The translations under genes were made by a program, and so were the position numbers. A stretch of 64,000 bases of DNA, from assembly GCF_025854375.1 (NCBI RefSeq), contig NZ_CP107575.1, positions 3,100,001 through 3,164,000 of the forward strand, written 5' to 3'. Below the pieces are notes generated by a model. It ran no database searches, was not told the origin of the DNA, and saw only the letters and a list, made by a program, of their open reading frames with translations. Positions 5,857-56,436 of the stretch are shown one piece after another (the first letter of the stretch is position 1; the number at the start of each line of letters is the position of its first letter). The stretch is from Glutamicibacter sp. JL.03c. GTDB taxonomy: Bacteria; Actinomycetota; Actinomycetes; Actinomycetales; Micrococcaceae.

Positions 5857-7407
5857 TCACACCGAAGTAGCGTTCAGGGTTTGCTCCAATTCGAGATCAT
5901 TGAGCATGAACCTGGCCCCTTGCTCACCGATCAAGATGGACGGCGCGTTGGTGTTGCCGGTAGTAATCTTCGGCATGATCGAGGCATCAATGACCCGCAG
6001 CCCACGAAGACCGCGCACCTTGAGCTCGGGATCCACCACGGCTTTCCCATCGATTCCCATGGCACAGGTACCGACCTGATGGTGGTAGGTCACCGCGTTA
6101 TTGCGAATGTACTCTTCCAGCTGCGCATCATCCTGGACTTCAGGCCCGGGATAGATTTCCTGCGCGCCCCAGGCTCCGGCAAGGGCATCCTGCTGGACCA
6201 TCTGGCGGCACTGCTTGATGGAGAAAAGGAACGCTTCCATGTCGCGCCGGTCGGCCAGGGCGTTCAAATCGATATTCACTGGATCATCCAGGCCCGGTCC
6301 GCTGAGCGTGAGTTCGCCTCGGCTATACGGGGTGACAATTCCCGAATGCAAGGTGAATGCGGTGCCATCAACCGGTTCCATGCCCGGCGAATACATTGGC
6401 ACGGCGAAGAAGATCGGCTGGGTATCAGGAATCTCGAGATCCTCCCGGGACTTCGCAAAGAGGTGCGACTGCGAAACCGAGACACCTTGGCGCGGGGCCG
6501 GGATATCCCGCGTGGTCGTTGTGGCGATCACCGGGGCCAAAAGGTGATCGTGCAGATTCTTGCCCACGCCCGGCAGATCATGAACGGCCTGCACTCCGGC
6601 TTCCTGCAGTTCGGCCGCCGGGCCGATACCCGAACGCAACAGGATCTGCGGGGAACCCAAGGCGCCTGCGCTGAGCACCACATGATCCGCGGTCAGCTGG
6701 TGCATCTGCCCATCTTGCCGGTAGTTGACCCCGGTGACCGCGCCGTCCTCGACTATCACCGAGTGCACTTCTGCCCCGGTAATAATGGTGGCTTGCCCGC
6801 GCACCGGCTTCAGGTACGCCTTCCAGGTATTGATCCGCTGCCCGTCAACGATATTGACCTGCTCCTTGGAGACGCCATCGAGCGTCCCGGAGTTGTAGTC
6901 GGGATTGAAGGGAACACCGGATTCTTCGGCCGCCTTGATAATCGAGGCGTGGATCTCATCGAGCTGGTAGTCATTGTCCACCGGGATGGGCCCGCCGGTA
7001 CCGTGGACAGCGCTGCCGCCTCCGGAGAAATCCTCGATGTCCCGGTAGACCGGCAAGACCTTGTCCCACGCCCACTCAGGACCGCAGTCCTGGGCCCAGC
7101 CATCGAAGTCCTGCTGCGCGCATCGAACCCAGATGGTCGCGTTCAAGGCATGGGAACCGCCCAGGACCTTGCCGCGCGGCAGGTGCACCTTCTTGCCAGC
7201 GGTGCCCTCCATGGGCGTGGTGTAGTAGTCCCAGTCGTCCGGGCTGTGCCACAATTCGCCCAGCCGGGACAGGTCGTGGATGGCGGGATTGGTGTCTTCT
7301 CCCCCGGCCTCGAACACGGTCACATCGGCGCCGGCATCGATCAACCGGCGGGCAACCACCGATCCTGCCGAACCAGCACCGACCACAATGACAGATACCT
7401 TGCCCAC
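5857..7407 (-). CDS. GMC-family FAD-dependent oxidoreductase (choline dehydrogenase-like)
   Basis: The 516-residue protein starts with a dinucleotide-binding fold (VIVVGAGSAGSVVARRL, residues 6-22). It carries the GMC signatures PRGKVLGGSHALN and GALGSPQILLRSGIGP, and ends with the catalytic pair H443 (YHHQVGTCAMG) and Asn 485/487 (GNTNAPS). GMC enzymes oxidise alcohols such as choline, glycols or sugars. Without a betaine-aldehyde dehydrogenase or choline transporter beside it, the substrate stays open. The GTG start at 7407 follows a GCAGG. It lies 60 bp upstream of marR on the same strand. Confidence 0.87.
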   Translation of the reverse strand: MGKVSVIVVGAGSAGSVVARRLIDAGADVTVFEAGGEDTNPAIHDLSRLGELWHSPDDWDYYTTPMEGTAGKKVHLPRGKVLGGSHALNATIWVRCAQQDFDGWAQDCGPEWAWDKVLPVYRDIEDFSGGGSAVHGTGGPIPVDNDYQLDEIHASIIKAAEESGVPFNPDYNSGTLDGVSKEQVNIVDGQRINTWKAYLKPVRGQATIITGAEVHSVIVEDGAVTGVNYRQDGQMHQLTADHVVLSAGALGSPQILLRSGIGPAAELQEAGVQAVHDLPGVGKNLHDHLLAPVIATTTTRDIPAPRQGVSVSQSHLFAKSREDLEIPDTQPIFFAVPMYSPGMEPVDGTAFTLHSGIVTPYSRGELTLSGPGLDDPVNIDLNALADRRDMEAFLFSIKQCRQMVQQDALAGAWGAQEIYPGPEVQDDAQLEEYIRNNAVTYHHQVGTCAMGIDGKAVVDPELKVRGLRGLRVIDASIMPKITTGNTNAPSILIGEQGARFMLNDLELEQTLNATSV

Positions 7408-7549
7408 GGCAAACCTGCTTCCCCTATTTCCGGCGGCCCGCCTCGGTGTGGACCGCGAATCCTAGGATTCAGTGTGCCGTGGATCACAGGAAGAATATTG
7501 CCATTGCGTGCAGCGTCATTGCCATCGAGCGCACAGGACGCCGCGGTGA

Positions 7550-8527
7550 TCACTGCCCTTTGCGCAAGGCCCGCAGTTCGTCAACACGCACCAGCACCAC
7601 GCCAGCGACAATCAGCAGGCCGCCAAAGAGCTGCACCAGTCCCGGCAATTCCGAGAGCAGCAACCACGCCCAGAGCACCGCGAACAATACCTCGGTCAGC
7701 GAGATGAAACTGGCCACCTTGGAGCCCAATGCCCGTGCCGCCATCACCCCGGTGGTGTAGGAGAACACCGTGGCGATCATGATCAGCCCGACCAGGGCAG
7801 CCCACCAAGGAGTCTGGAATCCGGCGAAGGATCCGCTGCCTGCGGCAAAGGTCATCGGGAGGATTCCCGAGGCGCCTACCAGCAGCATCGTGATGGCCCC
7901 TACGGCCATGCCGCCTGCGGAGAGCATGATCGGCGGCAGCGCCCCGTCGACCTTGGCGCTGATGAAGAAGTAGACGGTCAGCCCGACGGCCGCCCCGAGA
8001 CCCCAGAGGACTCCAATCGGATCAATTTTTGAAGTTCCGGTCAGATCCAGCACAGCGATCAAGCCCAGCAGGGACAACAGCGTCCCGGCTATGGTGGCTG
8101 CCGAGGGCCGCTTCTGATGCCGCACCCACAGCACCAGGACGATAAGCACCGGAGCCAGATACTCAAGCAACAGTGCCACACCCACATCCAGCCGCTGCAC
8201 GGCCAAGAAGTAGCACAACTGGCAGGCTCCCACGCCAAAGAGGCCAAAGAGCAGAATCGACAGCCAATTGGTGCGCACCAGCACCCATCGTCCACGCATC
8301 GCCAGAACAGCCGGGATGGCCAGCACTACTGCTGCCCCGGCCATGCGCGCGGCGACCGCTGCGGTCGGGCTCCAGCCTGCTTCGAACAGGCCCCTGGCAA
8401 AGGAACCGGAAATTCCAAAGGCCGCTGAGGAGGCCAAGGCAATCCAGATTCCCCTGGCTTGGCTGCCGCCGTGCGCTGGTAGTTCCCGGGCGCCTGCAGG
8501 CAACTGCGAGCCGGTGGTTTCGCTCAT
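7550..8527 (-). CDS. EamA/RhaT-family drug/metabolite transporter
   Basis: This 325-residue protein has ten predicted membrane helices formed by two EamA repeats, the first starting near residue 27 (IALASSAAFGISGSFARGLF) and the second near residue 175. DMT-superfamily members of this size usually export amino acids or other metabolites; the substrate cannot be read from sequence. It is divergent from the CGNR gene at 8649 with a 121-bp gap that must hold both promoters. Confidence 0.82.
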   Translation of the reverse strand: MSETTGSQLPAGARELPAHGGSQARGIWIALASSAAFGISGSFARGLFEAGWSPTAAVAARMAGAAVVLAIPAVLAMRGRWVLVRTNWLSILLFGLFGVGACQLCYFLAVQRLDVGVALLLEYLAPVLIVLVLWVRHQKRPSAATIAGTLLSLLGLIAVLDLTGTSKIDPIGVLWGLGAAVGLTVYFFISAKVDGALPPIMLSAGGMAVGAITMLLVGASGILPMTFAAGSGSFAGFQTPWWAALVGLIMIATVFSYTTGVMAARALGSKVASFISLTEVLFAVLWAWLLLSELPGLVQLFGGLLIVAGVVLVRVDELRALRKGQ

Positions 8528-8648
8528 GGGTGTGGATGTCTTTCACGAAGAATTCAAAGCCCCGCACAAGGGGCAACAATGCCTATGGGCATGACGATAC
8601 GGTTAGGCTTGAGAGGCAGTCAATCCACCCCTCGCCCAGGAACGAATT

Positions 8649-9200
8649 ATGACCTTTGCCCCCGATATCGTCGCTTCGCTGAAGAGCGTCGTGAACCTCT
8701 TGAATACCGAGGTGCAGATCGTCGACATGCTCTCCACCGTCGCTGATCTGGACGAATTCCTCGATGCCGAAAACTTCGAGGGGTCCCGCGCGCACAACCA
8801 GGCGGAGCTGCGTTCCATCCGCCAGCTGCGCTCCCAGCTCAAGGGCGTCTGGACCGGCAGCGAGGAAGAGGCCGTATTCAAGGTCAACCAAATCCTGCGC
8901 AACGCCAATGCCCAGCCGCAGCTGGTCAAGAGCGAAAAGCTCGGATATCACCTGCATGCGACCACCACCAGCACGCCGTTGTACGACCGCTTGGCGGTGG
9001 ATGCCGCCATGGCGCTGGCCGAAGTCATCCGCTCTGGCGGCATTGAGCGGCTGCGGATCTGCGCTTCTGCCGACTGCCGGAATGCCCTGCTGGATCTCTC
9101 GCGCAACCGCTCGAAACTCTATTGCGATATCGGCAACTGCGCCAACCGCGAGCACGTTCGCGCCTACCGAGCCCGCAAGGCCGGCAAGTCTTCCTGGTAG
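8649..9200 (+). CDS. CGNR zinc-finger (ABATE-type) putative transcriptional regulator
   Basis: The 183-residue protein has an N-terminal all-helical stress-domain region and a C-terminal zinc finger with C138, C143, C159 and C164 around SRNRSKLYCDIGNCANREHV. This is the CGNR family, common in actinobacteria and thought to be DNA-binding. The name-giving C-G-N-R is C-A-N-R here. RBS CCAGGAA precedes ATG 8649 at suitable distance. It is divergent from the EamA transporter and might regulate it; that is inference from position only. Confidence 0.8.
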   Translation: MTFAPDIVASLKSVVNLLNTEVQIVDMLSTVADLDEFLDAENFEGSRAHNQAELRSIRQLRSQLKGVWTGSEEEAVFKVNQILRNANAQPQLVKSEKLGYHLHATTTSTPLYDRLAVDAAMALAEVIRSGGIERLRICASADCRNALLDLSRNRSKLYCDIGNCANREHVRAYRARKAGKSSW

Positions 9201-9311
9201 AGCTCAACTGCTGGCGAACGCCACGGCGCGTTCTCGCATTAAACCCCATCAGCACCCTATGATGAACACACCACCGGCACATCGGTGGTGCAGCAGTTGA
9301 AAGGGCAGGTC

Positions 9312-9623
9312 ATGACTCAGGAAACACACGCTTCAGACGACTACGAGGCACGGCTGGAAGCTGCTCACAGCAACCCGCTGATGGCGGCCGGACGCTGGGT
9401 GGTCGCGCTGGCGTCGGCAACTTTGGGCGATGGCGAGTTCGAAGCCAATGAACCCCAGGTCGTGGTCCATTCCCGCGCTGATGATTCGGTGATGCTGCGC
9501 ATCACCACCTCCAGCTTGGAAGAGGCCGAACGCCTGATTGTGCAGATCCGCGAGGACCTCGAGAACCTGAGCACCGAGGAGTTCCGCGCCGAATGGGAAC
9601 CGGCAGCAGACCGGGAACGCTAA
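9312..9623 (+). CDS. small conserved-looking actinobacterial protein of unknown function
   Basis: A soluble, acidic protein of 103 residues. ATG 9312 is chosen over an in-frame GTG at 9285 because AAGGGCAGG lies just before it. I do not recognise a family. The middle part (DSVMLRITTSSLEEAERLIV) reads as strand-helix, and the C-terminus is a charged helix. It follows the CGNR gene by 111 bp on the same strand. Confidence 0.6.
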   Translation: MTQETHASDDYEARLEAAHSNPLMAAGRWVVALASATLGDGEFEANEPQVVVHSRADDSVMLRITTSSLEEAERLIVQIREDLENLSTEEFRAEWEPAADRER

Positions 9624-9636
9624 GAATCCGGCACGG

Positions 9637-10113
9637 TTAGTGTTCGACGAGGATTCCGTCGATATCCGCGTAGACCATGGCACCGGGGCGTACCTTTACG
9701 TCGCCGATGCTCAGCACTTCATCCACGGCGCCATGCGAGCGCTTGACGGTTTTGCGTGGATTGCTTCCCAAGGCCTTGATGCCCAGTTCCAGTTCCGCCA
9801 AGGCCGCGCGGTCGCGCACGGCACCGTAGATGATCACTCCGGCCCAGCCGTTGGCTTCTGCGCTGGCAGCAATCATGTCGCCCATCAACGCGTAGCGCAG
9901 CGACCCTCCGCCATCGACAACCAGGACCGCGCCGTTACCCGGGAAGCTCAGGATCTCCTTGATCAGCCCGTTGTCTTCATGGCACTTCACGGTGCGTGCC
10001 GGGCCGTGGAAAGATAGCCGTCCGCCGAAGTCCTGGAATTGCGCCGAGATGGATTGCAGGGCTTCACCGTGCTGGTCGTACAGGTCTGCGGTGCTGATCG
10101 GATCCTGCTGCAT
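9637..10113 (-). CDS. RraA-family protein (ribonuclease E inhibitor / HMG aldolase fold)
   Basis: This 158-residue protein has the RraA-fold core GDMIAASAEANGWAGVIIYG followed by AVRD, which holds the metal-site Arg-Asp pair of the aldolase branch. In actinobacteria most such proteins are 4-hydroxy-4-methyl-2-oxoglutarate aldolase-like or annotated as RraA regulators; the sequence alone does not decide between them. The start at 10113 is supported by AAAGGAG five bases upstream; an extended frame to 10218 is rejected. The length equals the family norm of about 160. Confidence 0.87.
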   Translation of the reverse strand: MQQDPISTADLYDQHGEALQSISAQFQDFGGRLSFHGPARTVKCHEDNGLIKEILSFPGNGAVLVVDGGGSLRYALMGDMIAASAEANGWAGVIIYGAVRDRAALAELELGIKALGSNPRKTVKRSHGAVDEVLSIGDVKVRPGAMVYADIDGILVEH

Positions 10114-10278
10114 GATGCTCCTTTGAATCTGCGATGGTCTTCCAGCACACAGCATATCCATGAGCGCCCGATCATGGGCGAACGATCCGTAATTTAGCCG
10201 ATCACAAGTACCTGTCACTCGCCAAAAAGAACAATACGCTCATTGATTCCCCGTGCTGCCAGGTCGATTTCACAAACT

Positions 10279-11754
10279 CTAGAGCTCCAGCTCCTTGTGG
10301 TAGGCCGCGGCGTCCAGGGAACCCAAGCGTGAGTGGCGGCGCCCATAGCCAAGGTAGATGCCGGCGCCGACGATCATCCACAGCCCGAAGACCACCCAGG
10401 TGATTCCGGCCAGGTTGAACATCAAGAACAGGCAGGCGGCAATGCCCAGGATCGGTGTCACCGGATACAGCGGCACGCGGAAGGTGCGGGGAGTATCCGG
10501 CTGGGTCCTGCGCAGATACATCACCGAAACGCCGACCAGCGCGAAGGCGAACAGTGTGCCGATGCTGGTGGCCTCGGCCAACTGGCCCAAGGGAATCAAC
10601 GATGCGGCAATGGCGACCAACAGGCCCGTGACGCAGGTGCCGATCACCGGGGTGTGCGTCTTGGGCGAGACCTTGGCGAAAAAGCGCGGAACCAGGCCAT
10701 CGCGCCCCATGGACAGCAAGATGCGCGTCTGTCCGTACAGGGTGGTGAGCACCACCGAGACGATGGCGATGACCGAAGCCAGCGCGAAGGCCAGCACCAG
10801 CCAGCGCTGCCCGGTGATCTCCGCGACGATCTGCACCAGGGCCGCCTCGGAATCGGCGAACCAGTCCCACTCGCGGGCGCCAATCGCGGCCACCGCCACC
10901 AGCACGTAGATCGCCGTGACCAGGAGCATCGCGATCATGATGGCGCGTGGCAGGTCCTTCTGCGGGTTCTTCGCTTCCTCCCCGGCCGTGGAGGCCGCAT
11001 CAAAACCGATGTAGGAGAAGAAGACCATCGAGGCGGCCCCGGTGACCCCGGCTGCGCCCATCGGCAGCAGCGGGGCGAAGTTCCCGGCGTCAAAGGCGGT
11101 GAAGGCAACGATCACGAAGAAGACCAGGATCGCGATCTTCACCAGCACCATGATGGTATTGGCCATCGCGGATTCCCGGGCGCCGCGCACCAGCAGCGCG
11201 GTGGCCAGCACCACCACGAGCAACGCCGGAAGATTGATCACCCCGCCATCGGCCGGCCCGCCGGCCAGGGACTCGGGCAGCGAGAGCCCGAAGATCTGCA
11301 GGGTCTGGTTGACGTAGGCCCCGGCGCCGACGGCCACCGCGGCGGCGGACACCGCGTATTCCAAGACCAGGCACCAGCCGCAGATCCAGGCCACCCCTTC
11401 GCCCAGGGTGGCGTAGGAATAGGAGTAGCTGGATCCGGAGACCGGCACCATGCCAGCCATTTCGGCGTAGGATACCGCGGAGAGCAGCGCAGTGATCCCG
11501 GCCAGCACGAAGGCAATCCAGATGGCAGGACCGGCGACCGGAACCGCTGAACCGAGGATGACCAGAATGCCGGTGCCCAGGGTGGCGCCCACCGAGATCA
11601 TCACCAGCTGCATCACGCCCAGCGAGCGCTTCAGCGACCCGAGCCCGGCGTTGCTGGCCGCGTCCTTGGCCATCGCGTTGATGGATTTGCGTCGGCGCAG
11701 CTGCTGGCCCAGCGGGGTGGAGCCTGGCGTCGGGGTGGTGCTGGTACTACTCAC
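10279..11754 (-). CDS. APC-superfamily amino-acid permease (cationic amino-acid transporter type)
   Basis: A 491-residue membrane protein with about twelve helices. Near residue 52 is VMISVGATLGTGILVILGSA, the unwound-helix-1 substrate site motif of APC transporters, and EEAKNPQKDLPRAI near residue 265 is the conserved loop of the CAT/YfnA group. It should import an amino acid with proton coupling. The GTG start at 11754 follows AAGGA by six bases. No catabolic genes sit beside it to name the substrate. Confidence 0.85.
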   Translation of the reverse strand: MSSTSTTPTPGSTPLGQQLRRRKSINAMAKDAASNAGLGSLKRSLGVMQLVMISVGATLGTGILVILGSAVPVAGPAIWIAFVLAGITALLSAVSYAEMAGMVPVSGSSYSYSYATLGEGVAWICGWCLVLEYAVSAAAVAVGAGAYVNQTLQIFGLSLPESLAGGPADGGVINLPALLVVVLATALLVRGARESAMANTIMVLVKIAILVFFVIVAFTAFDAGNFAPLLPMGAAGVTGAASMVFFSYIGFDAASTAGEEAKNPQKDLPRAIMIAMLLVTAIYVLVAVAAIGAREWDWFADSEAALVQIVAEITGQRWLVLAFALASVIAIVSVVLTTLYGQTRILLSMGRDGLVPRFFAKVSPKTHTPVIGTCVTGLLVAIAASLIPLGQLAEATSIGTLFAFALVGVSVMYLRRTQPDTPRTFRVPLYPVTPILGIAACLFLMFNLAGITWVVFGLWMIVGAGIYLGYGRRHSRLGSLDAAAYHKELEL

Positions 11755-11790
11755 GGGGAATCCTTGATGCGTGTTGTCGCCAACAAGAAC

Positions 11791-11825
11791 GCGCCAGGAC
11801 TATCGATAAGGGACAGTCCCGGCGC
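11791..11825 (-). terminator. hairpin terminator for the lactate/small membrane protein operon
   Basis: Arms 11791-11801 and 11815-11825 pair over 11 positions with one imperfect pair. It lies 26 bp beyond the stop of the small membrane protein gene at 11851 on the minus strand and upstream of the permease gene, so it separates the two units. Confidence 0.55.
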
Positions 11826-11850
11826 GCTATTGCGTGGTTATTCTTTATGC

Positions 11851-12144
11851 TCAGTCTTCAAACTTCTTGTCCGGATTGGCTGAGGACCGATTCACTCCGG
11901 TCCCCTTGCCCAGGTCTGGATCATTTTCCTTGCCTGCCATGGTCATCACCGAGATGATCAGCAGGCAGGCGATGAAGGTAATGCCGAAGCAGGCCAGTCC
12001 GATATCGAATCGGAGGGGATTCTGGGATCCGCCGGTGGAACTGATCAGGCCGACGACTCCTGCAATGATCGCCAAGATCAGCGAGAAACTCAGTGGGCCC
12101 TTGATCGACTGGCTCCACGGCTGCTTCTTCTTGTTGTTTCCCAC
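11851..12144 (-). CDS. small two-helix membrane protein of unknown function
   Basis: The GTG at 12144 is chosen because GGAGG stands five bases before it; longer in-frame starts have no ribosome site. The 98-residue product has a lysine-rich cytoplasmic start (MGNNKKKQPW), two hydrophobic segments (about residues 15-35 and 47-68) and a polar tail. I do not recognise a family. It is 38 bp after the 204-residue membrane protein gene and probably the last gene of the same transcript, before the hairpin at 11791. Confidence 0.65.
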   Translation of the reverse strand: MGNNKKKQPWSQSIKGPLSFSLILAIIAGVVGLISSTGGSQNPLRFDIGLACFGITFIACLLIISVMTMAGKENDPDLGKGTGVNRSSANPDKKFED

Positions 12145-12182
12145 CAGGACCTCCGTTTCTACTTTTCCTGCAGACTTCAAGA

Positions 12183-12797
12183 CTAGTTGTTTTCTTGCTC
12201 CGGCGTATCAGCCGCAGGCGCGGCTTCCGCCTTCATTTCGTGGCGATGGCCGAATCCGGCAATCAGCTCGAAGACCGCAAGGACAATGGTTCCGCCGCCA
12301 ATCAGCCCGAAGAGCGCGTGCGCGTCCATGCCGCCACTGAAGCACAGGGCAATGGCCAAGATCACGCCGACCGCACCGGTAATCAACTGGTTCCTGAACG
12401 GCGGGAAGGCTTCTCGCAGCTTGGCGAAAACATACAGCTCGGCAATGCCGCTCACCAGGAAAGCGAAGGCCGCGATGTACCCGATCCAGGCCACCGAGGT
12501 GACAAAGATGGTGGCGATGCCGGCCAGCAGCATCAACCCTGCCCCGGCCGCGTAGGCGCCACGGGACTTCTCCGGGGCACTGCCCACCGTCACGTATTGC
12601 CACATGAATACGCCGGTGACGACGAGGAAGCCGGCCGTCGAATAGGCCAGCGCCTTCTCGTCAGCTCCAATCCAGAAAATGGAGAGCAGCGCGTAGGCCA
12701 GGGCGGTCAGTCCACGCAGGAAGACCGGGCGGAAAACTTCTTGGGCTTGGGTGGGGGTGGTTTTTGGTGCAGGCACAATTTCTATTCTACCGTGCAT
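12183..12797 (-). CDS. six-helix membrane protein, HdeD/DUF308-like
   Basis: The 204-residue product shows six evenly spaced hydrophobic helices arranged as three hairpins from residue 30 on, resembling HdeD/DUF308 membrane proteins, whose role is not well known (acid stress in enterobacteria). The ribosome site before ATG 12797 is weak (GGCGG only), but no better start was seen. It lies 43 bp downstream of the 67-residue gene and upstream of the two-helix gene. Confidence 0.65.
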   Translation of the reverse strand: MHGRIEIVPAPKTTPTQAQEVFRPVFLRGLTALAYALLSIFWIGADEKALAYSTAGFLVVTGVFMWQYVTVGSAPEKSRGAYAAGAGLMLLAGIATIFVTSVAWIGYIAAFAFLVSGIAELYVFAKLREAFPPFRNQLITGAVGVILAIALCFSGGMDAHALFGLIGGGTIVLAVFELIAGFGHRHEMKAEAAPAADTPEQENN

Positions 12798-12840
12798 AGA
12801 ACTAACCGCCAGTTCAGCAAGCGCCCCATGCGTTCGGCGG

Positions 12841-13044
12841 CTACGGTCCCTGATGCTTCGTCGTCCGACCGGGCCGGGAATTCCTGCGGGCTCGTGATGC
12901 CGCGTAGAGCAGGTAAACCAGGGCCATGAGCAGGAAGGCCACACCTGCCAGCAGCTCGTGGGCCGCGAGATTCCACAGCCCGACCGCCGCCACAAGAACC
13001 GCCAGCGATATCAAGGTGGCCCGTGATGCCGAGGTCTTCCACAT
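12841..13044 (-). CDS. small two-helix membrane protein downstream of lldD
   Basis: A 67-residue product (MWKTSASRATLISLAVLVAA at the start) with two membrane helices, residues 9-30 and 33-51, and a very basic C-terminal tail. The ATG at 13044 lies four bases after the stop of the lactate dehydrogenase gene, which suggests translational coupling. No family recognised. A longer frame reaching into the dehydrogenase gene is not needed. Confidence 0.6.
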   Translation of the reverse strand: MWKTSASRATLISLAVLVAAVGLWNLAAHELLAGVAFLLMALVYLLYAASRARRNSRPGRTTKHQGP

Positions 13045-48968: not shown

Positions 48969-50499
48969 GGAACTGGAATTCACCAACCTGTCGGTCAGCT
49001 CGGGGCAGCAACTGCTGCTCTCCAAGGCACGCGGCGCGCTGCGCTCAGGCGAACTGGTGGCGGTGGTGGGACGCTCTGGGTCGGGCAAGACCCTGTTGAC
49101 CAAAGCGATTATGGGATTGCTTCCCGAGCAGTTGCGAGCCGAGGGGCAGATCCTGCTTGACGGTCAGCGCCTTGACCAGCTTGGCGATAAGGCCATGGAC
49201 GCGGTGCGCGGGCAGCGCATCAGCATGCTCTTCCAGCAGCCCAAGCGCGTCATGAATCCGCGGATGACCATCCGCGCCCACCTGCTCGAGGCCATGGGCG
49301 CCCATGGCTGGGGCAAGGCACGAGCGCATGAAGACCGGGTGATCGCCCTGCTTGACGAGGTGGGACTGGCGCCGGCGGCGCAGATCGCCAGCCAGCGGCC
49401 GGACCAGCTCTCCGGCGGCATGGCCCAGCGTGCCATGCTGGCCATCGCCCTGGCAGCTGACCCCGAATTCATTCTGGCCGATGAGCCCACCTCCTCCCTG
49501 GATTCAATTCTCAAGGCGGAAGTCCTGCAGCTGTTGCGCCGCAAGCAGCAAGAGCGCGGCGTGGGCGTCCTGTTCATCACCCATGACATCGCCAGCATCC
49601 AGCACATCGCGGACCGCGTGGTGGTAGTCAGCGACGGGAAGATCGTAGACCAGTGCCCCACCGCCCAGATTTTCTCCAAGGACCGGCATGCCAAGACGCG
49701 CGAGCTGGTTGAAGCAACGCTTCCGGCGGCGCGCGCTCCACGCACCGAGAACTCCCGATGCCTGCTCGCGGCCGTGGATGCCAGCAAGAATTACACGCGC
49801 CGCGGCAAGGGACCTGCCGCCTTGGAACCCACCAGCCTGCGCCTCCACGGCGGGCAGGTGCTTGGTGTTGTGGGCCGTTCCGGCTCCGGCAAGAGCACCA
49901 TTGCGCGGCTGCTGGCTGGATTGGAACAGCCAACCACCGGGCGCATCATCACCGAGCACAACGATGACGTGGCCACCCGCGTGCAGATCATCGCCCAGGA
50001 ACCCTATTCGTCCTTCGACCCCCGCCTGGATATCCGCACCAGCATGGGCGCCGCAGTCCAGCAAATGGCCCCAGCCCAGGCGAGCAAGCGCATGGCACAA
50101 GCCATGGCCCAAGTCGGTTTGCCAGAAGAACTGCTTCAGCGCCGTCCGGGCCAGTGTTCCGGCGGGCAGCTGCAACGCTTGGCCATCGCCCGAGCGCTGC
50201 TGACCGAACCCCAGGTGCTGATTTGCGATGAATCCACCTCGGCCTTGGACTCGGTGGCCCAGCGCCACATTCTTGATCTGCTGCTTGAGCTGCGCGACAC
50301 CATGGGGCTGAGCCTGGTCGTGATCTCCCACGACATGGACGTGATTCGCTATGTCAGCGATGATGTCGCAGTCTTCTATGAAGGCAGGCTCGTAGAGCAC
50401 CGTCCGCTGGGCGAATTCTTGACCGCTGCGGAGCACCAGCACAGCAAGGACCTCGTCGCCGCACTGGATGCCACGGCTGCCTCCGCTGCCTCCCGGTGA
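48961..50499 (+). CDS. fused two-domain ABC ATPase (DppD-DppF type)
   Basis: The 512-residue protein has two complete NBDs. NBD1 has GRSGSGKT, LSGGMAQR and FILADEPTSS; NBD2 has GRSGSGKS, CSGGQLQR and VLICDESTSALD; both keep the H-loop (ITHD, ISHD). It powers the import system encoded by the three preceding genes. GTG 48961 follows GAAGGTGG; a longer frame from 48940 is possible but has no ribosome site. One fused gene replaces the usual two separate ATPase genes. Confidence 0.9.
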   Translation: MAKELEFTNLSVSSGQQLLLSKARGALRSGELVAVVGRSGSGKTLLTKAIMGLLPEQLRAEGQILLDGQRLDQLGDKAMDAVRGQRISMLFQQPKRVMNPRMTIRAHLLEAMGAHGWGKARAHEDRVIALLDEVGLAPAAQIASQRPDQLSGGMAQRAMLAIALAADPEFILADEPTSSLDSILKAEVLQLLRRKQQERGVGVLFITHDIASIQHIADRVVVVSDGKIVDQCPTAQIFSKDRHAKTRELVEATLPAARAPRTENSRCLLAAVDASKNYTRRGKGPAALEPTSLRLHGGQVLGVVGRSGSGKSTIARLLAGLEQPTTGRIITEHNDDVATRVQIIAQEPYSSFDPRLDIRTSMGAAVQQMAPAQASKRMAQAMAQVGLPEELLQRRPGQCSGGQLQRLAIARALLTEPQVLICDESTSALDSVAQRHILDLLLELRDTMGLSLVVISHDMDVIRYVSDDVAVFYEGRLVEHRPLGEFLTAAEHQHSKDLVAALDATAASAASR

Positions 50500-50565
50500 C
50501 CATCGGCGCGTAAGCTCAGCGCCATGTTCTTGTGTGGCCGGGATGGAACTAATAGGTTCTAGGCT

Positions 50566-51408
50566 ATGACTGAGCGTTCAAAGAAGATCTCGTCCTTTAT
50601 CCGCCATGCATCCTTGCTTGCGTTGGGTGCCGTCCTATTGGTCTCGGGGTGTTCTGCGCCGTCGCAGGAGGCCGACAGCGGCGAGCAGCCCCATCAAGAG
50701 GCAGCATCCCGGCTGACGAGTGTCAGCGAGGCAGGGAAGCTCAAGGTCTGCACCACCGGTGATTACCGCCCGTTCACCTATCTTGACCCGCAGTCTGGCC
50801 AGTGGTCCGGCATCGATATCGACATGGCCAAGAATCTGGCGCAATCACTGAACGTGGAACCCGAGTTCATCCAGACCACGTGGAAAGATCTCATGCCCGA
50901 CTTCACCTCCAAGTGCGATATCGCCGTGGGCGGGGTGTCGATTTCCCTTGAACGTTCCCAGCAGGCTTACTACAGCGAAGCGACGCTGGATGAGGGCAAG
51001 ACACCCATTACCCTGTGTGAAAACGTGGACAAGTACGACACCATCAAGGAAATCAATCAGCCCGGGGTCCGCTCCATCACTCCCATTGGGGGCACCAACG
51101 AGAAGTTTGCCGACGCGAACTACCCCGACGGCGAGATCATTCGCTTTGACGACAACAACAAGATCTTCGACGAAATCATCGCCGGACGCGCCGATGTCAT
51201 GACCACCGATGCTTCGGAAACCCGCTGGGTGGCCCACGAGCATCCAGAACTTTGTGCGGTTCACCCGGACAAGCCGTTCAATTTCTCGCAAAAGGCCTAC
51301 CTCCTGCCTCTGGGCGATGATGAATTCCAGGAGTACGTCAATCAGTGGCTGAACATGGCCAAGCATGATGGAACGCTGGAAGCCGCAGAAAAGCCTTGGT
51401 TCGGGTAA
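50566..51408 (+). CDS. pheC: cyclohexadienyl (prephenate/arogenate) dehydratase, PheC-like, as lipoprotein
   Basis: The 280-residue product carries a signal peptide and lipobox (LLVSGC, C29), then a type-2 binding-protein fold. It has the PheC blocks LKVCTTGDYRPFTYLD, GVSISLERSQQAYYS, GKTPITLC, PIGGTNEKFADANYPD and HPELCAVHPDKPF followed by KAYLLP. These resemble the Pseudomonas periplasmic PheC enzyme more than an amino-acid binding protein. The probable reaction is prephenate or arogenate to phenylpyruvate or phenylalanine, outside the membrane. An amino-acid ABC binding protein is the alternative, but no partner permease is adjacent. Confidence 0.78.
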   Translation: MTERSKKISSFIRHASLLALGAVLLVSGCSAPSQEADSGEQPHQEAASRLTSVSEAGKLKVCTTGDYRPFTYLDPQSGQWSGIDIDMAKNLAQSLNVEPEFIQTTWKDLMPDFTSKCDIAVGGVSISLERSQQAYYSEATLDEGKTPITLCENVDKYDTIKEINQPGVRSITPIGGTNEKFADANYPDGEIIRFDDNNKIFDEIIAGRADVMTTDASETRWVAHEHPELCAVHPDKPFNFSQKAYLLPLGDDEFQEYVNQWLNMAKHDGTLEAAEKPWFG

Positions 51409-51424
51409 GTTCGAAAATCGGATG

Positions 51425-51469
51425 AAGCCGCCGTTTTCTGCTCGCAAGATGGGCGGAAAACCGCGGCTT
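51425..51469 (+). terminator. hairpin terminator after pheC
   Basis: AAGCCG at 51425-51430 pairs with 51464-51469, and the inner segments 51431-51441 and 51453-51463 pair with one mismatch and one G-T pair. A T-rich stretch (TTTGTTTGC) follows. It begins 16 bp after the pheC stop. Confidence 0.75.
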
Positions 51470-51610
51470 TGTTTGCTTAGGTTCTGAGGATTTATCAGCG
51501 GCTGAATCAGGTCTTGTGCTCGATCTGGGCCGAGGTCATGCAATCTCGCCAATGAAGAGTTCGGCTTCCATCGCTCGGTCGATAGCGTCTGGTCCACAAT
51601 GCAGCAAACG

Positions 51611-51665
51611 GAAAGTGATAGCAAGACGGATCCTTACTATCACTTTCTTAGAAAGTGATAGTAAG
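51611..51665 (+). repeat. three copies of a 15-bp operator-like element before the Fic gene
   Basis: GAAAGTGATAGCAAG at 51611-51625 and GAAAGTGATAGTAAG at 51651-51665 are direct copies differing at one base. The exact complement CTTACTATCACTTTC lies at 51633-51647, giving a perfect inverted repeat (15-bp arms, 3-base loop TTA) with the third copy. A TATTAT (51674-51679) and GGAGG follow. The layout suits a repressor binding as two dimers. Confidence 0.8.
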
Positions 51666-51695
51666 ATAATCCTTATTATAACTTCGGAGGCACCC

Positions 51696-52943
51696 ATGGT
51701 TGATTCTAATAACGCCCATCCGGCGATCAGTTTCCCGTCTCTGGAGTATCAGGAACACTTCTGGAAGCCAACGAATCCGCACATCTTCTCCAACGCTGAA
51801 GTTCGGCGGCAAACCGGTCCCTACTTGTCTGCGTTGCCCGCCCGCATTGCCGACTGGTCGCCTCAACCACAAGCGTTGAAGATCCCAGGCCTAGAAGAAG
51901 CGCTGCATTCGCTCCAGGATTTCGACGTCTACTCGCTTCTGAAACTTGGCAACGACAACCCTGAACTCGGCCCAATGTCCAGCGTCCTTCTCCGAACAGA
52001 AAGCTCTTCAAGCAGCCAGATTGAACAGTTGACTACAACAGCACGTCAACTCGCGCTAGCGGAAATCGATGAAGGCGATAAAGCCAATGCCCGCACAGTT
52101 GTTGGCAACGTCCACGCGATGGAATCCGCGCTTGAACTTGCCTCAGAGATCAACCTCAACAGCATCCTCACCATGCATCAAAGCTTGATGAAGCAACAAG
52201 TTGGCATGGAAGACGAAGCCGGAAAACTCCGTAGTGAACTTGTCTGGATCCGTGGTTCGGACACCGCCGGACCTCGCGGATCCATCTACGTAGCACCGCA
52301 CCACGGTCTGGTTCAGGACGCGTTGGAAGACCTCACTGAATTCATTGCTCGCACCGATCTGCCGGCCATAATCCAAGCGGCAATTGCCCATGCGCAATTT
52401 GAAACCATCCATCCATTTGTGGACGGCAATGGGCGAACTGGCCGAGCCCTAGTTCACAGCGTGCTTCGCAACCGACGTATAACCCAGTACACCACTGCAC
52501 CAATTTCCGCTGGATTATTGCGAGACACTACTGCCTACTTTGATGCGCTAAAAGCCTTCCGTGAAGGAAACGCGGCACCAATCATCCACGTCTTCATTAA
52601 CGCCTCAATTTTTGCAGCAAACACCGGCAAGGACTTAATTGATTCGCTTGCCGCGCAGCTAGCTGATTCGGCCACAAAGTTGGCCGGATTGCGTTCAAGC
52701 TCCGCCGCGTGGAGAATCCTTCCTCGACTGATTTCTCAACCTGTCGTGAACGCCCGCTACCTGAAAAGCCAGCTTTCCTTGGGCGACGCCGCAATCCAGC
52801 GTGCTCTCGGTCAACTGGCCGAACGGGGCGTGCTAGTTGAAAAATCTGGACGAAGTAGGAACCGGATCTGGCAACATGATGGGGTTCTGAAAGTGCTAGA
52901 CGAATATTCAAAGTCTCTTCACCGTGTGGCAGGAACCGCATAG
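51696..52943 (+). CDS. Fic-domain protein (putative AMP-transferase) with C-terminal winged HTH
   Basis: The 415-residue protein has the complete Fic motif HPFVDGNGRTGR (H239-R250). Ahead of it is an N-terminal inhibitory helix of the S-x-x-x-E type (SSSQIEQ, E110) that would block ATP binding. A C-terminal winged-HTH region follows (LKSQLSLGDAAIQRALGQLA then ERGVLVEKSGRSRNRIW). Fic proteins attach AMP or similar groups to target proteins. The HTH together with the triple element upstream suggests autoregulation. GGAGG before ATG 51696 is clear. Base composition is more AT-rich than upstream genes. Confidence 0.9.
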   Translation: MVDSNNAHPAISFPSLEYQEHFWKPTNPHIFSNAEVRRQTGPYLSALPARIADWSPQPQALKIPGLEEALHSLQDFDVYSLLKLGNDNPELGPMSSVLLRTESSSSSQIEQLTTTARQLALAEIDEGDKANARTVVGNVHAMESALELASEINLNSILTMHQSLMKQQVGMEDEAGKLRSELVWIRGSDTAGPRGSIYVAPHHGLVQDALEDLTEFIARTDLPAIIQAAIAHAQFETIHPFVDGNGRTGRALVHSVLRNRRITQYTTAPISAGLLRDTTAYFDALKAFREGNAAPIIHVFINASIFAANTGKDLIDSLAAQLADSATKLAGLRSSSAAWRILPRLISQPVVNARYLKSQLSLGDAAIQRALGQLAERGVLVEKSGRSRNRIWQHDGVLKVLDEYSKSLHRVAGTA

Positions 52944-53084
52944 GTCACCGGGCGATTCAGATATTAAGCCCTGTTCTCATCAAAATCTCGTACAATTACT
53001 TAGCCGGAGCGAAAACAGGCCAAAATCATTCCGAGTTTCACAGTCCAATTTCTGGGGAGGAAGTCTGATTATTCCACCGGGCAC

Positions 53085-53113
53085 TTGATTTCACAGCAAC
53101 CTTTTAATACTGT
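53085..53113 (+). promoter_or_regulatory. predicted sigma-70-type promoter
   Basis: TTGATT at 53085-53090 and TACTGT at 53108-53113 are separated by 17 bp in an AT-rich 229-bp gap. It would drive the unknown 378-residue gene with a leader of about 50 bases, independent of the Fic gene. Confidence 0.4.
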
Positions 53114-53172
53114 TTGATGAAAATCCTGGTCCAATATTTCCAAGACAATAGTTTAAACCAATGGGTAGGTGA

Positions 53173-54309
53173 ATGCATATAGAATCGCGTGGCATGGAGT
53201 CACACCAACAACTTTCATTGGCGATAGCCACCAGCGACCTCCGCTACGTGTGTGGCCAATTGATGAATTCAAAAAGCCATCCTCGAACCTGGCCATTCTC
53301 GCAATGGGGTGCAATGATCGCATTCGAAACCCAGAAGAATCTGCATGACGTACACGACACTCGACTAGACCTTGACTGGGAAGACGAAATCGCAGCTGCC
53401 GCCCGTCATGGCGGAAAATACTTTGATGGTCGCGAAACGCAAATCGATAGTGTAATCAGCGATTTTCGCGTTCTTGCCGCAGCCACAACGCTAGCGTACT
53501 ACCCTGAAGATCGACGTGGTCCAGAGTTCGATTTCCTTCGTGATGACCTGTCTGTAGTAACGGATGGATCCGAAGTGTTGTTAACAAACGTTACCGGACA
53601 CTTTATGGTAGGCCTTCCGCCAAATCGTGCCGCCGACCTGACCAAGATTGGACCTCATGTTCGCAAGCTCGCAATGGGAATAGGGCAGATGGCGAGCGCC
53701 CTAACAAGCATGAACGTTGAAGAGCTCATGAAACATGGAAAACAACCCGAGCCAACAGTGACATGGTGGGACGGCGATATTGCAGACTTAGTTCGTTCTA
53801 CTTTCGGTGGCGAACTAAGAACCGAAATTGCTTTGGCCCTCGTCAGTATTCACTCCACAATACAGTCCGCTCTACGATGGGCGTGGGCCGATTGTTGCCA
53901 ACCATGTAGGGTGGCCTCACTGAAACACCGTTTTATTGTCCTTCACCATGCCGTTCGTTCCTTGCAACAGCTCGGCAACCGACTTGAAAGACTTGGTCCA
54001 ATCGCTAAAGCCTACATTCAGGACCTTTCCAATTCTGCTGACTTGCAGTTGGTGATTTCTGAGCGTTACCGAAAGCTTAGAAATGGCTGGCTGCATCTCG
54101 GATTAGGAGACATAGCGTCAATTCTTCCGAAGACTCCAAATATCCTATCTCCCGTATTCGCATACACTCAGATGGAGATCGGCGCATTCTCGGAACTCGT
54201 GGATCGCGGACTCAACGAAGTCTCGGTGGGCATCGGCGCTTGGCTTGCGGAACCCGGATTAGACGGCAAGTCAGTATTCGAGCACCTACATCTTCCGCCT
54301 GAGGAATGA
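53173..54309 (+). CDS. unrecognised 378-residue protein with an R-x4-H (HEPN-like) motif
   Basis: No family was recognised. The protein is soluble and mostly helical in its second half. Residues 303-308 read R-N-G-W-L-H inside SERYRKLRNGWLHLGLGDIA, an R-x4-H arrangement with a polar residue after R, as in HEPN ribonuclease domains. The preceding helices (about 225-300, LRTEIALALVSIHSTIQSAL onward) could supply the rest of a HEPN bundle. Two cysteines sit together in CCQPC (about 243-247). The gene is clearly more AT-rich than the chromosome average here and sits beside the Fic gene, suggesting acquisition. Start 53173 has AGGTG nearby; 53194 is an alternative. Confidence 0.6.
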   Translation: MHIESRGMESHQQLSLAIATSDLRYVCGQLMNSKSHPRTWPFSQWGAMIAFETQKNLHDVHDTRLDLDWEDEIAAAARHGGKYFDGRETQIDSVISDFRVLAAATTLAYYPEDRRGPEFDFLRDDLSVVTDGSEVLLTNVTGHFMVGLPPNRAADLTKIGPHVRKLAMGIGQMASALTSMNVEELMKHGKQPEPTVTWWDGDIADLVRSTFGGELRTEIALALVSIHSTIQSALRWAWADCCQPCRVASLKHRFIVLHHAVRSLQQLGNRLERLGPIAKAYIQDLSNSADLQLVISERYRKLRNGWLHLGLGDIASILPKTPNILSPVFAYTQMEIGAFSELVDRGLNEVSVGIGAWLAEPGLDGKSVFEHLHLPPEE

Positions 54310-54448
54310 CATCATCAGTGACTGGGGGATCCCTCCAGAAATGCAAACCTCAGCATGTCCGAGGAAACCCAGATAAAAGCCACCGTCTTCAGGTCACTTC
54401 ACGAGCGGGAGACGGCAGCCTTTGAATCACAGGACCGACATCCGGAGA

Positions 54449-55522
54449 CTAGTTCTCCCAGAATGGGTAATCGATGTATCCCTTTGGGCCTTCGGTGTAG
54501 AAGGTGGCGAAGTCTGGTTCATTCAGCGGCAGCTCTTCCTTCCAACGGCGCACCAGGTCCGGGTTGGCGATCGCGGGGCGGCCAACAACTACGGCGTCGC
54601 CCCAGCCTTCGGCGGCCACGCGCGCGGCTTCTTCATAAGTGGTGATTTCTGCGAAGCCAGTGTTGAGCAGCACCGGTCCGCCGAAGGTCTTGCGCAGCGA
54701 CTGAACCAGCTCACCGGAAGGTTCATGGTGCAGGATGCTCAAGTTGGCCAGACCAAGTGGGGCGATGCCTTCCAGCAGCGCGGTGTAGGTAGCCAATACA
54801 TCCGCGCGATCGTTTTCCACAGCGCCCTGGACATTGTGCTCTGGCGAAATGCGCAGTGCGGTCTTGCCGGCACCGATAGCGTGGGCCACCGCGGTAGCTA
54901 CCTCGATGACAAAGCGTGCGCGGTTTTCAGGGGAACCACCATAATTGTCGGTGCGGGTGTTAGCCGATGGTGCCAAGAATTCATGCAGCAGGTAGCCATT
55001 GGCGCCGTGCAATTCCACGCCGTCAAAGCCTGCGGCAATGGCGTTGCGCGAAGCAGCCACGAACTCTTCGATGATCCTTGGAAGTTCTTCGGTGCCCAGT
55101 GCGTGGGGAACCGGATAAGCATGCTTGCCGGTGTAGGTGCGGGACTCGCCCTCAACGGCGATGGCGCTTGGCGCCTCCACGTGCTCGGCTCCGGTGGTGT
55201 CCGGGTGGGTGACGCGTCCTGCGTGCATGACCTGGGCGACAATGAGTCCGCCTTCGGCGTGCACTGCGTCGGTGACTTTCTTCCACCCGGCAACCTGTTC
55301 TTCGGTAACCAGGCCTGGCTGGCGGACGAAGCCCTGGCCGGCAAAGCTCGGGTAGGTTCCTTCGCTGACAATCAGGCCGAGGGAAGCGCGCTGGCGGTAG
55401 TACTCGACGACGTCAGCATTGGGAACGCCGTCCTTGCCGGAGCGGGAACGGGTCAGCGGCGCCATGACCAGGCGGTTGGACAGCTTGAGGTCGCCGAGGG
55501 CTACTGGGGAAAACAGATCCAT
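54449..55522 (-). CDS. nemA: Old Yellow Enzyme-type alkene/N-ethylmaleimide reductase
   Basis: The 357-residue FMN enzyme has the OYE marks NRLVMAPLTRSR (T24), active-site H172, N175 and Y177 in VELHGANGYLLHEF, and the closing TRTDNYGGSPENRARF. It reduces activated C=C bonds of enals, maleimides or nitro compounds with NAD(P)H. AGGAG precedes the ATG. A palindrome-like site at 55548 lies 26 bp upstream of the start codon and suggests control by an electrophile-sensing repressor encoded elsewhere. Confidence 0.92.
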   Translation of the reverse strand: MDLFSPVALGDLKLSNRLVMAPLTRSRSGKDGVPNADVVEYYRQRASLGLIVSEGTYPSFAGQGFVRQPGLVTEEQVAGWKKVTDAVHAEGGLIVAQVMHAGRVTHPDTTGAEHVEAPSAIAVEGESRTYTGKHAYPVPHALGTEELPRIIEEFVAASRNAIAAGFDGVELHGANGYLLHEFLAPSANTRTDNYGGSPENRARFVIEVATAVAHAIGAGKTALRISPEHNVQGAVENDRADVLATYTALLEGIAPLGLANLSILHHEPSGELVQSLRKTFGGPVLLNTGFAEITTYEEAARVAAEGWGDAVVVGRPAIANPDLVRRWKEELPLNEPDFATFYTEGPKGYIDYPFWEN

Positions 55523-55547
55523 GGGTTGGACTCCTGACGTGGAAATT

Positions 55548-55568
55548 GTAGTTGCATTGCGTAACTAC
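55548..55568. promoter_or_regulatory. operator-like inverted repeat upstream of nemA
   Basis: GTAGTTGCATTGCGTAACTA plus C is a 21-bp imperfect palindrome with outer arms GTAGTT/AACTAC perfect. It lies between the nemA start (55522) and the SDR gene. Electrophile-responsive OYE genes are commonly controlled from such sites by TetR- or HxlR-type repressors. Confidence 0.5.
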
Positions 55569-55683
55569 CGTCGCAAACAACTTATTCCACCACAGCAGAG
55601 AATATGAGCTGGCTAACGGCACCCAACGCCCGACGCCGAGGATGCGGAGCTAGCATGCACCGCATTCACGACAGGCGGTTGCG

Positions 55684-56436
55684 CTAGATTGCGGTGTAGC
55701 CGCCGTCAACCAGGTGGTAGCTGCCGGTGATGAAGGATGCAGCGTCACTGGCCAGGAAGGCTACGAGCGCAGCGACTTCCTCTGGCTGGCCCAAGCGGGC
55801 AATGGGGTGCTTGGAGACCAGGGCATCATAGGCGTCTTTTGGCATCTGCTTCAGCAGCGGGGTCTCGATGAATCCGGGAGCCACGCTGTTCACGCGCACG
55901 CCGTCGGTGGCGTATTCGACTGCGGCGGTCTTGCTCAGGCCCACCACGGCGTGCTTGGTGGACACGTAGGCGGAGCTGCCGGCGAACCCCACGGAGCCGA
56001 GGATGGAGGCCATGTTCACGATGGAACCGCCGCCGTTCTGGCTCATGGCGTTGGCCTGGGCACGGGTTCCGCGGAAGACTGCATTCAAGTTGATCGAGAT
56101 GACCTTGTCCCAGTCCTCATCGGTGAGCTCGCCCACCTTGGCAGCGCGGCCGCCGATGCCTGCGTTGTTGACTCCGATCTTCAGCGGGGCCATGGCGTTG
56201 GCTGCCTTGATGGTTTCGTCAATGACCTCGGAGGAGCTTGCGTCTCCCGCGACAGCTACGGCTTCTCCGCCGGCGGCCTTGATGGTGTCCACGGTACCCT
56301 GGGCGGCGTCAGCGTTCAGATCCTGGACGACCACCTTGGTTCCGTTGGCGGCCAGGAGAATTGCAATTGCTTCTCCGATACCTGATCCGGCGCCGGTAAC
56401 TACTGCCGAACGATCTGCCACATCATACTGAGCCAT
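55684..56436 (-). CDS. SDR-family NAD(P)-dependent dehydrogenase (3-oxoacyl-ACP reductase-like)
   Basis: A 250-residue classical SDR with VVTGAGSGIGEAIAI (13-27), NNAGIGG (90-96), and catalytic S144, Y157 and K161 (YVSTKHAVVG). D39 at the end of the second strand favours NAD over NADP. Such enzymes oxidise or reduce secondary alcohols, for example acetoin or butanediol-type substrates. It lies 161 bp upstream of nemA on the same strand; the two may be regulated together. Confidence 0.87.
   Translation of the reverse strand: MAQYDVADRSAVVTGAGSGIGEAIAILLAANGTKVVVQDLNADAAQGTVDTIKAAGGEAVAVAGDASSSEVIDETIKAANAMAPLKIGVNNAGIGGRAAKVGELTDEDWDKVISINLNAVFRGTRAQANAMSQNGGGSIVNMASILGSVGFAGSSAYVSTKHAVVGLSKTAAVEYATDGVRVNSVAPGFIETPLLKQMPKDAYDALVSKHPIARLGQPEEVAALVAFLASDAASFITGSYHLVDGGYTAI

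Follow-up and report, generated by a model that had tools for sequence, protein, structure and literature searches.

We analysed a window of 64,000 nucleotides from Glutamicibacter sp. JL.03c (contig NZ_CP107575.1, positions 3,100,001 to 3,164,000; the genome is a single contig of 3,586,856 bases). Between a solute-binding-protein gene and nemA, the window carries a gene for a Fic protein and a gene for an orphan protein of 378 amino acids (aa) with an RNxxxH motif (Table 1). A preliminary description of this locus had proposed that the two genes form a pair in which the Fic protein controls a HEPN toxin. The two open reading frames (ORFs) are indeed co-directional and separated by 229 bp. Their low GC content was also confirmed, with values of 0.538 for the Fic gene, 0.419 for the gap and 0.510 for the 378-aa gene; the genes on either side have 0.571 and 0.621. 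For reference, 1.2-kb windows over about positions 1 to 50000 had a mean GC content of 0.639 (standard deviation 0.023, minimum 0.585). The terminator placed near 51425 was not flagged by our scan, although by eye one can see an inverted repeat there whose loop is longer.

Table 1. Features of the locus, in window coordinates.
Feature	Position	Strand	Remarks
Solute-binding-protein gene	50566-51408	+	Hotspot flank
Cargo hotspot between solute-binding-protein gene and nemA	51409..54448	.	Congener comparison
Fic operator array, four AAGTGATAGTAAG half-sites	51613..51684	.	51613 >, 51633 <, 51653 >, 51672 <
Fic protein, 415 aa	51696..52943	+	ORF, Pfam, PADLOC, PDB sequence match
378-aa orphan protein, RNxxxH motif (R303, N304, H308), predicted HEPN-type	53173..54309	+	Alternative start 53194
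nemA	54449-55522	-	Hotspot flank; name from the sequence reading of the preliminary description

We compared this interval among 18 genomes of the genus. Both flanking orthologues were adjacent in 11 of them; five of the intervals were empty (G254, G230, G246, G169 and G095), with 92-102 bases between the matched coding parts, and six were occupied. The cargo differed from strain to strain. The Fic gene is accompanied by the 378-aa gene in the window and by a helix-turn-helix (HTH)/HipA pair in G181 (PF07804, 3.4e-48). Such a pair was also recognised in G075 and G191 by like translations, the hidden Markov models (HMMs) having been run on the G181 pair only, and G191 holds about 5 kb extra. 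A divergent Kiwa-like pair is found in G210 (L081 1404-2967; KwaA 5.3e-14, KwaB 1.8e-10), and G112 has a 282-aa protein without a Pfam match. In G220, where Fic adjoins nemA, we did not find the solute-binding gene. On the chromosome, the interval constitutes a small hotspot for cargo of the defence and toxin-antitoxin kinds.

Remains of the Fic gene or of its operator are present at some of the other occupied sites. At 594-808 of L084 (G075) and at 5871-6085 of L085 (G191), the operator and the start of the Fic gene survive as a relic with about 74% identity to window positions 51594-51808. The G210 locus has a decayed operator (L081 644-696), in which three operator-like stretches stand 20 bases apart with 3, 1 and 3 mismatches. 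Fic looks like the older resident of the hotspot, with a strain-specific second cargo that is HipA-like, Kiwa-like or the 378-aa gene. This pattern argues strongly that the genes are independent.

The pair reading predicts that the two genes occur together in relatives, and they do not. No Fic gene was detected in the flanks of the eight close loci of the 378-aa gene (tblastn best E 1.5; FIC-motif scan negative), where 12 records were scanned with flanks of about 8 kb; one flank of L044 measured 4.6 kb, and those of four duplicates 1.5 kb. The same was true of the three distant loci (best E 0.15, no motif; one locus is 4.5 kb long). The three closest Fic relatives (G181, G220 and G230) had no 378-aa gene. 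As a genome-level partner Fic was rejected too: a Fic match was present in 4 of the 9 hosts or records with the 378-aa family, own included, which is no more than the background of 176 in 390 genomes of the bacterial family.

These results bear on the explanation that Fic AMPylates and silences the neighbouring HEPN toxin, as MntA does HepT. For HepT/MntA it is established that a HEPN toxin is adenylylated (PMC7641770). The two genes of the window are adjacent, lie on the same strand and are both AT-rich, and HepT chains, including the di-AMPylated 7ae6, are among the weak fold matches of the 378-aa model. Against this explanation stand the Fic-free flanks of both close and distant relatives, the three closest Fic relatives without a partner gene, the lack of an operator common to both genes, and a transfer of the 378-aa gene between plasmid and chromosome without Fic. 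Together with the independent change of cargo in the hotspot, they make such silencing very improbable. As a pair the two genes are not conserved, and the data do not support the proposal that Fic controls a HEPN toxin.

We also considered a nucleotidyltransferase as a partner of the 378-aa protein and rejected it; only the plasmid locus L007 has one nearby, which nearly touches the next gene. HepT/MntA and the 378-aa protein have in common a HEPN-type motif and the weak structural matches to HepT. Unlike in HepT/MntA, we saw no gene of the MNT type next to the 378-aa gene in the window; its neighbours are Fic (by HMM) and the nemA ORF. A crude scan for a nucleotidyltransferase-like motif in window positions 50000-56000 gave none, and the same scan missed the cyclase of L098. 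Fic itself is an adenylyltransferase unrelated to the MNT type. The available part of a HEPN review lists Fic/Doc-like genes near PrrC/RloC systems (PMC3710099), so that the proximity of HEPN and Fic genes is in itself no novelty. No description of a Fic-HEPN control pair was found in the available text of the literature searched, although one may have been published all the same.

Regulation probably separates the two genes as well. The four half-sites ahead of Fic alternate in orientation at a spacing of 19-20 bp around a core palindrome at 51633-51665, and from first to last they have 1, 0, 0 and 2 mismatches to AAGTGATAGTAAG. In the 3.59-Mb genome, this 13-mer was found with at most one mismatch at four places, three of them in the array, while the reversed-pattern control gave 0 matches. 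The central palindrome occurred once in the window against 0 expected. Four alternating half-sites (up to 3 mismatches, spacing 19-21 bp) were present in all six Fic loci of the genus examined, own included. These six were drawn from seven loci of at least 58% identity (L008-L014, own included), with L011/G230 omitted for its internal TGA.

We extended the analysis to 30 fetched Fic relatives and found an inverted repeat at most 75 bases 5' of the start in 20 of them, and not in the other 10. At most 2 of 200 dinucleotide shuffles reached the repeat, and 19 of the 20 repeats were reached by none. The start codons were chosen by script; L011, which has an internal TGA, received an incorrect start and is among the negatives, and in L028 the automatic match fell on a GC stem away from the operator position. 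The repeat sequence varies by group of relatives, which were grouped without a tree (TTACCAACACTT, CATACTTACAGTT, CATACCAATG and others). As the half-site differs among these groups, the operator and the C-terminal domain of Fic proteins may coevolve.

No half-site (12-mer, at most 2 mismatches) was found ahead of the 378-aa gene. The gap had been credited with a separate promoter, and our scan found no promoter-like site there; on these two results shared regulation of the genes was rejected. Because the array is conserved 5' of Fic and none lies 5' of its neighbour, the Fic gene is probably repressed by its own product through the array, and the 378-aa gene is probably outside Fic control. 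An inverted-repeat operator at the own promoter is a feature of self-repressing FIC-HTH proteins, and the window Fic has one. The available text on CccR reports that this FIC-HTH protein, a secreted effector, represses its own promoter via an inverted repeat (PMC9755527). CccR and the window Fic are alike in combining a FIC domain with a C-terminal DNA-binding domain (putative in the window Fic) and in having the inverted repeat at their own promoter. They differ in that the CccR footprint covers two 10-bp repeats 26 bp apart, as given in that text, against four alternating half-sites about 20 bp apart here.

The Fic protein was recognised by Pfam (Fic 1.9e-17, Fic_N 1.3e-6) and by the PADLOC SoFic model (3.5e-68), and its best solved relative by sequence is PDB 7cb8 (3.1e-52). 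It has a complete FIC motif, HPFVDGNGRTGR, at residues 239-250; the class II consensus is HPFx[DE]GNGRxxR. The inhibitory-helix motif in the N-terminal part of class II proteins is [S/T]xxxE[G/N], for which the candidate here is S106-SQI-E110, followed by Q111 and not by G or N. The C-terminal region holds a putative winged HTH with a Pfam match of 0.045, below the cut-off, so of the earlier label HTH-Fic the second half is firm and the first is weakly seen. The NCBIfam SoFic equivalog NF046030 gave 67.2 bits, under its curated cut-off of 550 bits. A longer ORF begins at 51516; since GGAGG precedes the ATG at 51696, we infer that the upstream start is merely a mechanical extension of the ORF. 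The nearest relatives are in G181 (83% identity), G230 (81%, with an internal TGA) and G220 (76%). A second Fic match in the same genome (35% identity; G000:C1:3095001-3095981) ends about 4 kb ahead of the window start.

From these matches, the protein is predicted to be a class-II-type, SoFic-like growth-arrest toxin that would AMPylate host targets. It shares with the SoFic/Sofic class II proteins (PDB 3EQX, 3ZCN and 7cb8; PMC12249575, available part) the single-protein layout, the full FIC motif, a C-terminal domain and, as a candidate, the N-terminal inhibitory-helix region. It is unlike SoFic in falling under the NCBIfam equivalog cut-off and in the candidate inhibitory motif that ends in E-Q, and unlike SoFic systems in that an AS1-like gene is not conserved beside it. 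An AS1-like antitoxin 3' of Fic was considered and rejected. The sole small plus-strand ORF (40-149 codons) starting in 52880-53149 encodes 54 aa from a GTG at 52924, and it falls past the stretch conserved between the window Fic and G181/G220, which stops near 52920.

The available text of the Sofic structure paper (PMC12249575) reports that wild-type E. coli Sofic is toxic and that this toxicity requires its C-terminal domain, and it calls the regulation of Sofic elusive. The available main text of that paper describes no binding of DNA by the domain and does not use the term HTH. Judging by the operator array, many class II Fic proteins may repress their own genes, and this would be relevant to the way in which toxic Sofic stays quiet.

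The 378-aa protein matched no catalogued family in the libraries searched. Scans against Pfam, NCBIfam and PADLOC up to E = 1 gave no match. For members of its family, the best Pfam value among five was 0.14, in one of them, and the PADLOC scan of eight gave 0 matches. A PHROGs search had a best E of 0.072, profiles against PDB sequences gave 0 matches in one run and a best value of 0.16 in another, and no match emerged when profiles were compared with those of the HEPN-type genes next to the relative in L098.

The sequence RNGWLH stands at residues 303-308. We aligned eight intact full-length sequences, namely the own one, four close ones and three distant ones (18-20% identity), the starts of two distant ones being set inside longer ORFs. 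The alignment has 19 invariant columns, which include R303, N304 and H308; the R and H, whose variability would have told against a HEPN motif, are thus constant in 8/8 down to the most distant relatives. R303-H308 is the sole one of the protein's five R-x4-6-H pairs that is invariant in all eight. Two disrupted homologues (L038 and L042) retain R, N and H, a third (L043) has S for R, and L044 does not reach the motif. In the structure model, the C-terminal half is helical and the N-terminal 200 residues have a predicted local distance difference test score (pLDDT) of 28-42 in each ten-residue block. The structure comparison returned no match above background, and that other folds did not turn up in so weak a comparison proves nothing.

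The available part of the HEPN review describes R-x4-6-H, mostly with N, D or H after R, and an Ex3[KR] element in many families (PMC3710099). A polar residue after R is present here as N304 (8/8), and the Ex3[KR] element was not seen among the invariant residues of the 378-aa family. HEPN RNases such as HepT, RloC/PrrC and Abi, as treated in that text, have in common with the 378-aa protein the R-x4-H with N after R, the helical C-terminal half and the defence context seen for two distant relatives. Unlike catalogued HEPN families, the protein has no detectable sequence relation in the searched libraries, a long N-terminal part and no conserved partner. The motif of the preliminary description has thus held, and the HEPN fold that it implied is plausible rather than proven.

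The 378-aa gene is rare. It was found in 5 of 395 genomes of the bacterial family and in 1 of 18 of the genus, own included in both. Additional close homologues came from one plasmid record and from seven loci on GTDB contigs, four of which were the same as loci of the family search. The eight distinct close loci belong to Arthrobacter sp. VKM Ac-2550, AK04, H16F315 and CAU 1506, Paenarthrobacter sp. PH39-S1 and OM7 (plasmid), Okibacterium fritillariae and Curtobacterium sp. MCBA15_008. A single-protein search of genome contigs gave 0 loci, viral contigs gave 0 loci, and phages gave one chance-level match (E 0.8). The order-wide profile search matched 1 of 396 genomes, the own one, in a sample without the hosts from the family-wide search. 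The class-wide profile search matched 3 of 384 genomes, own included, that is, two additional ones; in the family of these two, a follow-up profile search matched 6 of 229, and in three of these the match spanned most of the query. The genomes with distant relatives have 7.8-11.5 Mb.

The plasmid locus L007 and the H16F315 chromosome (L040) share 89% identity over 1172 bp (7930-9101 of L007). The shared stretch consists of the gene, at 7992-9098 of L007, together with about 60 bases 5' of it, and the flanks are unrelated save for one 50-base match elsewhere. The gene can move by itself. Disruptions affect four of the eight close loci: L038 has two in-frame stops, L042 one stop, L043 a frame break, and L044 is a fragment with two TGA. 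Beside the disrupted Okibacterium homologue, the ORF at L038 6528-7193 has an RNxxxH-like FRNQVAH, noted by eye only.

The neighbourhoods of the distant relatives contain defence genes. In L098, two genes with weak HEPN_RiboL-PSP matches (4e-4 and 2.5e-4, below the cut-off) lie 5' of the relative, and a cyclase of the type found in cyclic-oligonucleotide-based anti-phage signalling systems (CBASS) lies 3' of it on the opposite strand (PADLOC 5.5e-108; Pfam SMODS 1.2e-8). In L099, a NACHT protein gene (6e-10) on the same strand ends about 135 bases 5' of the relative, a DUF3644/HEC-08-type gene (6.4e-21) follows 3', with a GmrSD_N gene and an SNF2/PLD-type helicase close by. The 4.5-kb contig L100 is uninformative on context. 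The family is defence-linked by association, on two informative loci of the three distant ones.

The explanation that we favour, with moderate confidence, is a hotspot with two functionally separate genes, a self-repressing SoFic-like Fic toxin and a solitary 378-aa HEPN-type RNase for defence. The Fic protein would AMPylate host targets and so arrest growth, and its C-terminal domain would bind the four upstream half-sites and repress its own gene. The 378-aa protein, probably for the most part a solitary orphan of HEPN type, is most likely a metal-independent HEPN RNase in anti-phage defence; it would act via R303-N304-x3-H308, and its gene would serve as a single-gene anti-phage unit in Micrococcales. 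The unsupported two-gene toxin model is replaced by two testable single-gene ones.

Several results weigh against this explanation. The protein could be a helical accessory protein rather than a HEPN one, with RNxxxH in a structural role such as a helix cap: no family or fold match rose above background, column-order shuffles produced an invariant R-H pair at R-x4-6-H spacing in 529 of 20000 cases, and the further invariant residues D22, E52, R78, K82, K251 and R253 could make a different active site. The invariant N after R described by the HEPN review, the C-terminal half modelled as helical and the defence context of two of the three distant relatives speak for HEPN, and we regard a non-HEPN protein as rather unlikely, if a serious contender. 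The gene could also be decaying or transient selfish cargo that is functionless in this strain, as the disruption of half of the close loci and its occurrence in a single genome of the genus might suggest. The window copy, however, has an uninterrupted frame of 378 codons and retains the residues invariant in the other seven intact sequences wherever those agree with it (19 columns); we regard functionless cargo as quite unlikely. A purely solitary unit also has to accommodate L007, where a DUF6932 gene (1.1e-18), in which a stretch resembling a nucleotidyltransferase motif can be made out by eye, begins 215 bases 3' of the homologue on the same strand. This gene nearly touches or overlaps the next gene, of 385 aa, to which it may belong (L007 9314-11103 for the two together), and no DUF6932-type gene was found in the other 10 relative loci or in window positions 43001-64000.

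The 378-aa family is invisible to Pfam, NCBIfam and PADLOC, yet two distant relatives lie among defence genes, which makes it a candidate for defence discovery. It might represent a new HEPN RNase family that provides self-contained single-gene phage defence in Micrococcales, with the relatives in large actinobacterial genomes acting as effectors coupled to a NACHT sensor or to a CBASS neighbourhood; in this full form we consider the proposal doubtful. As a separate observation, the NACHT gene, the 378-aa relative and the DUF3644-type gene of L099 stand in a row on one strand (6224-12939) and form a possible three-gene defence operon.
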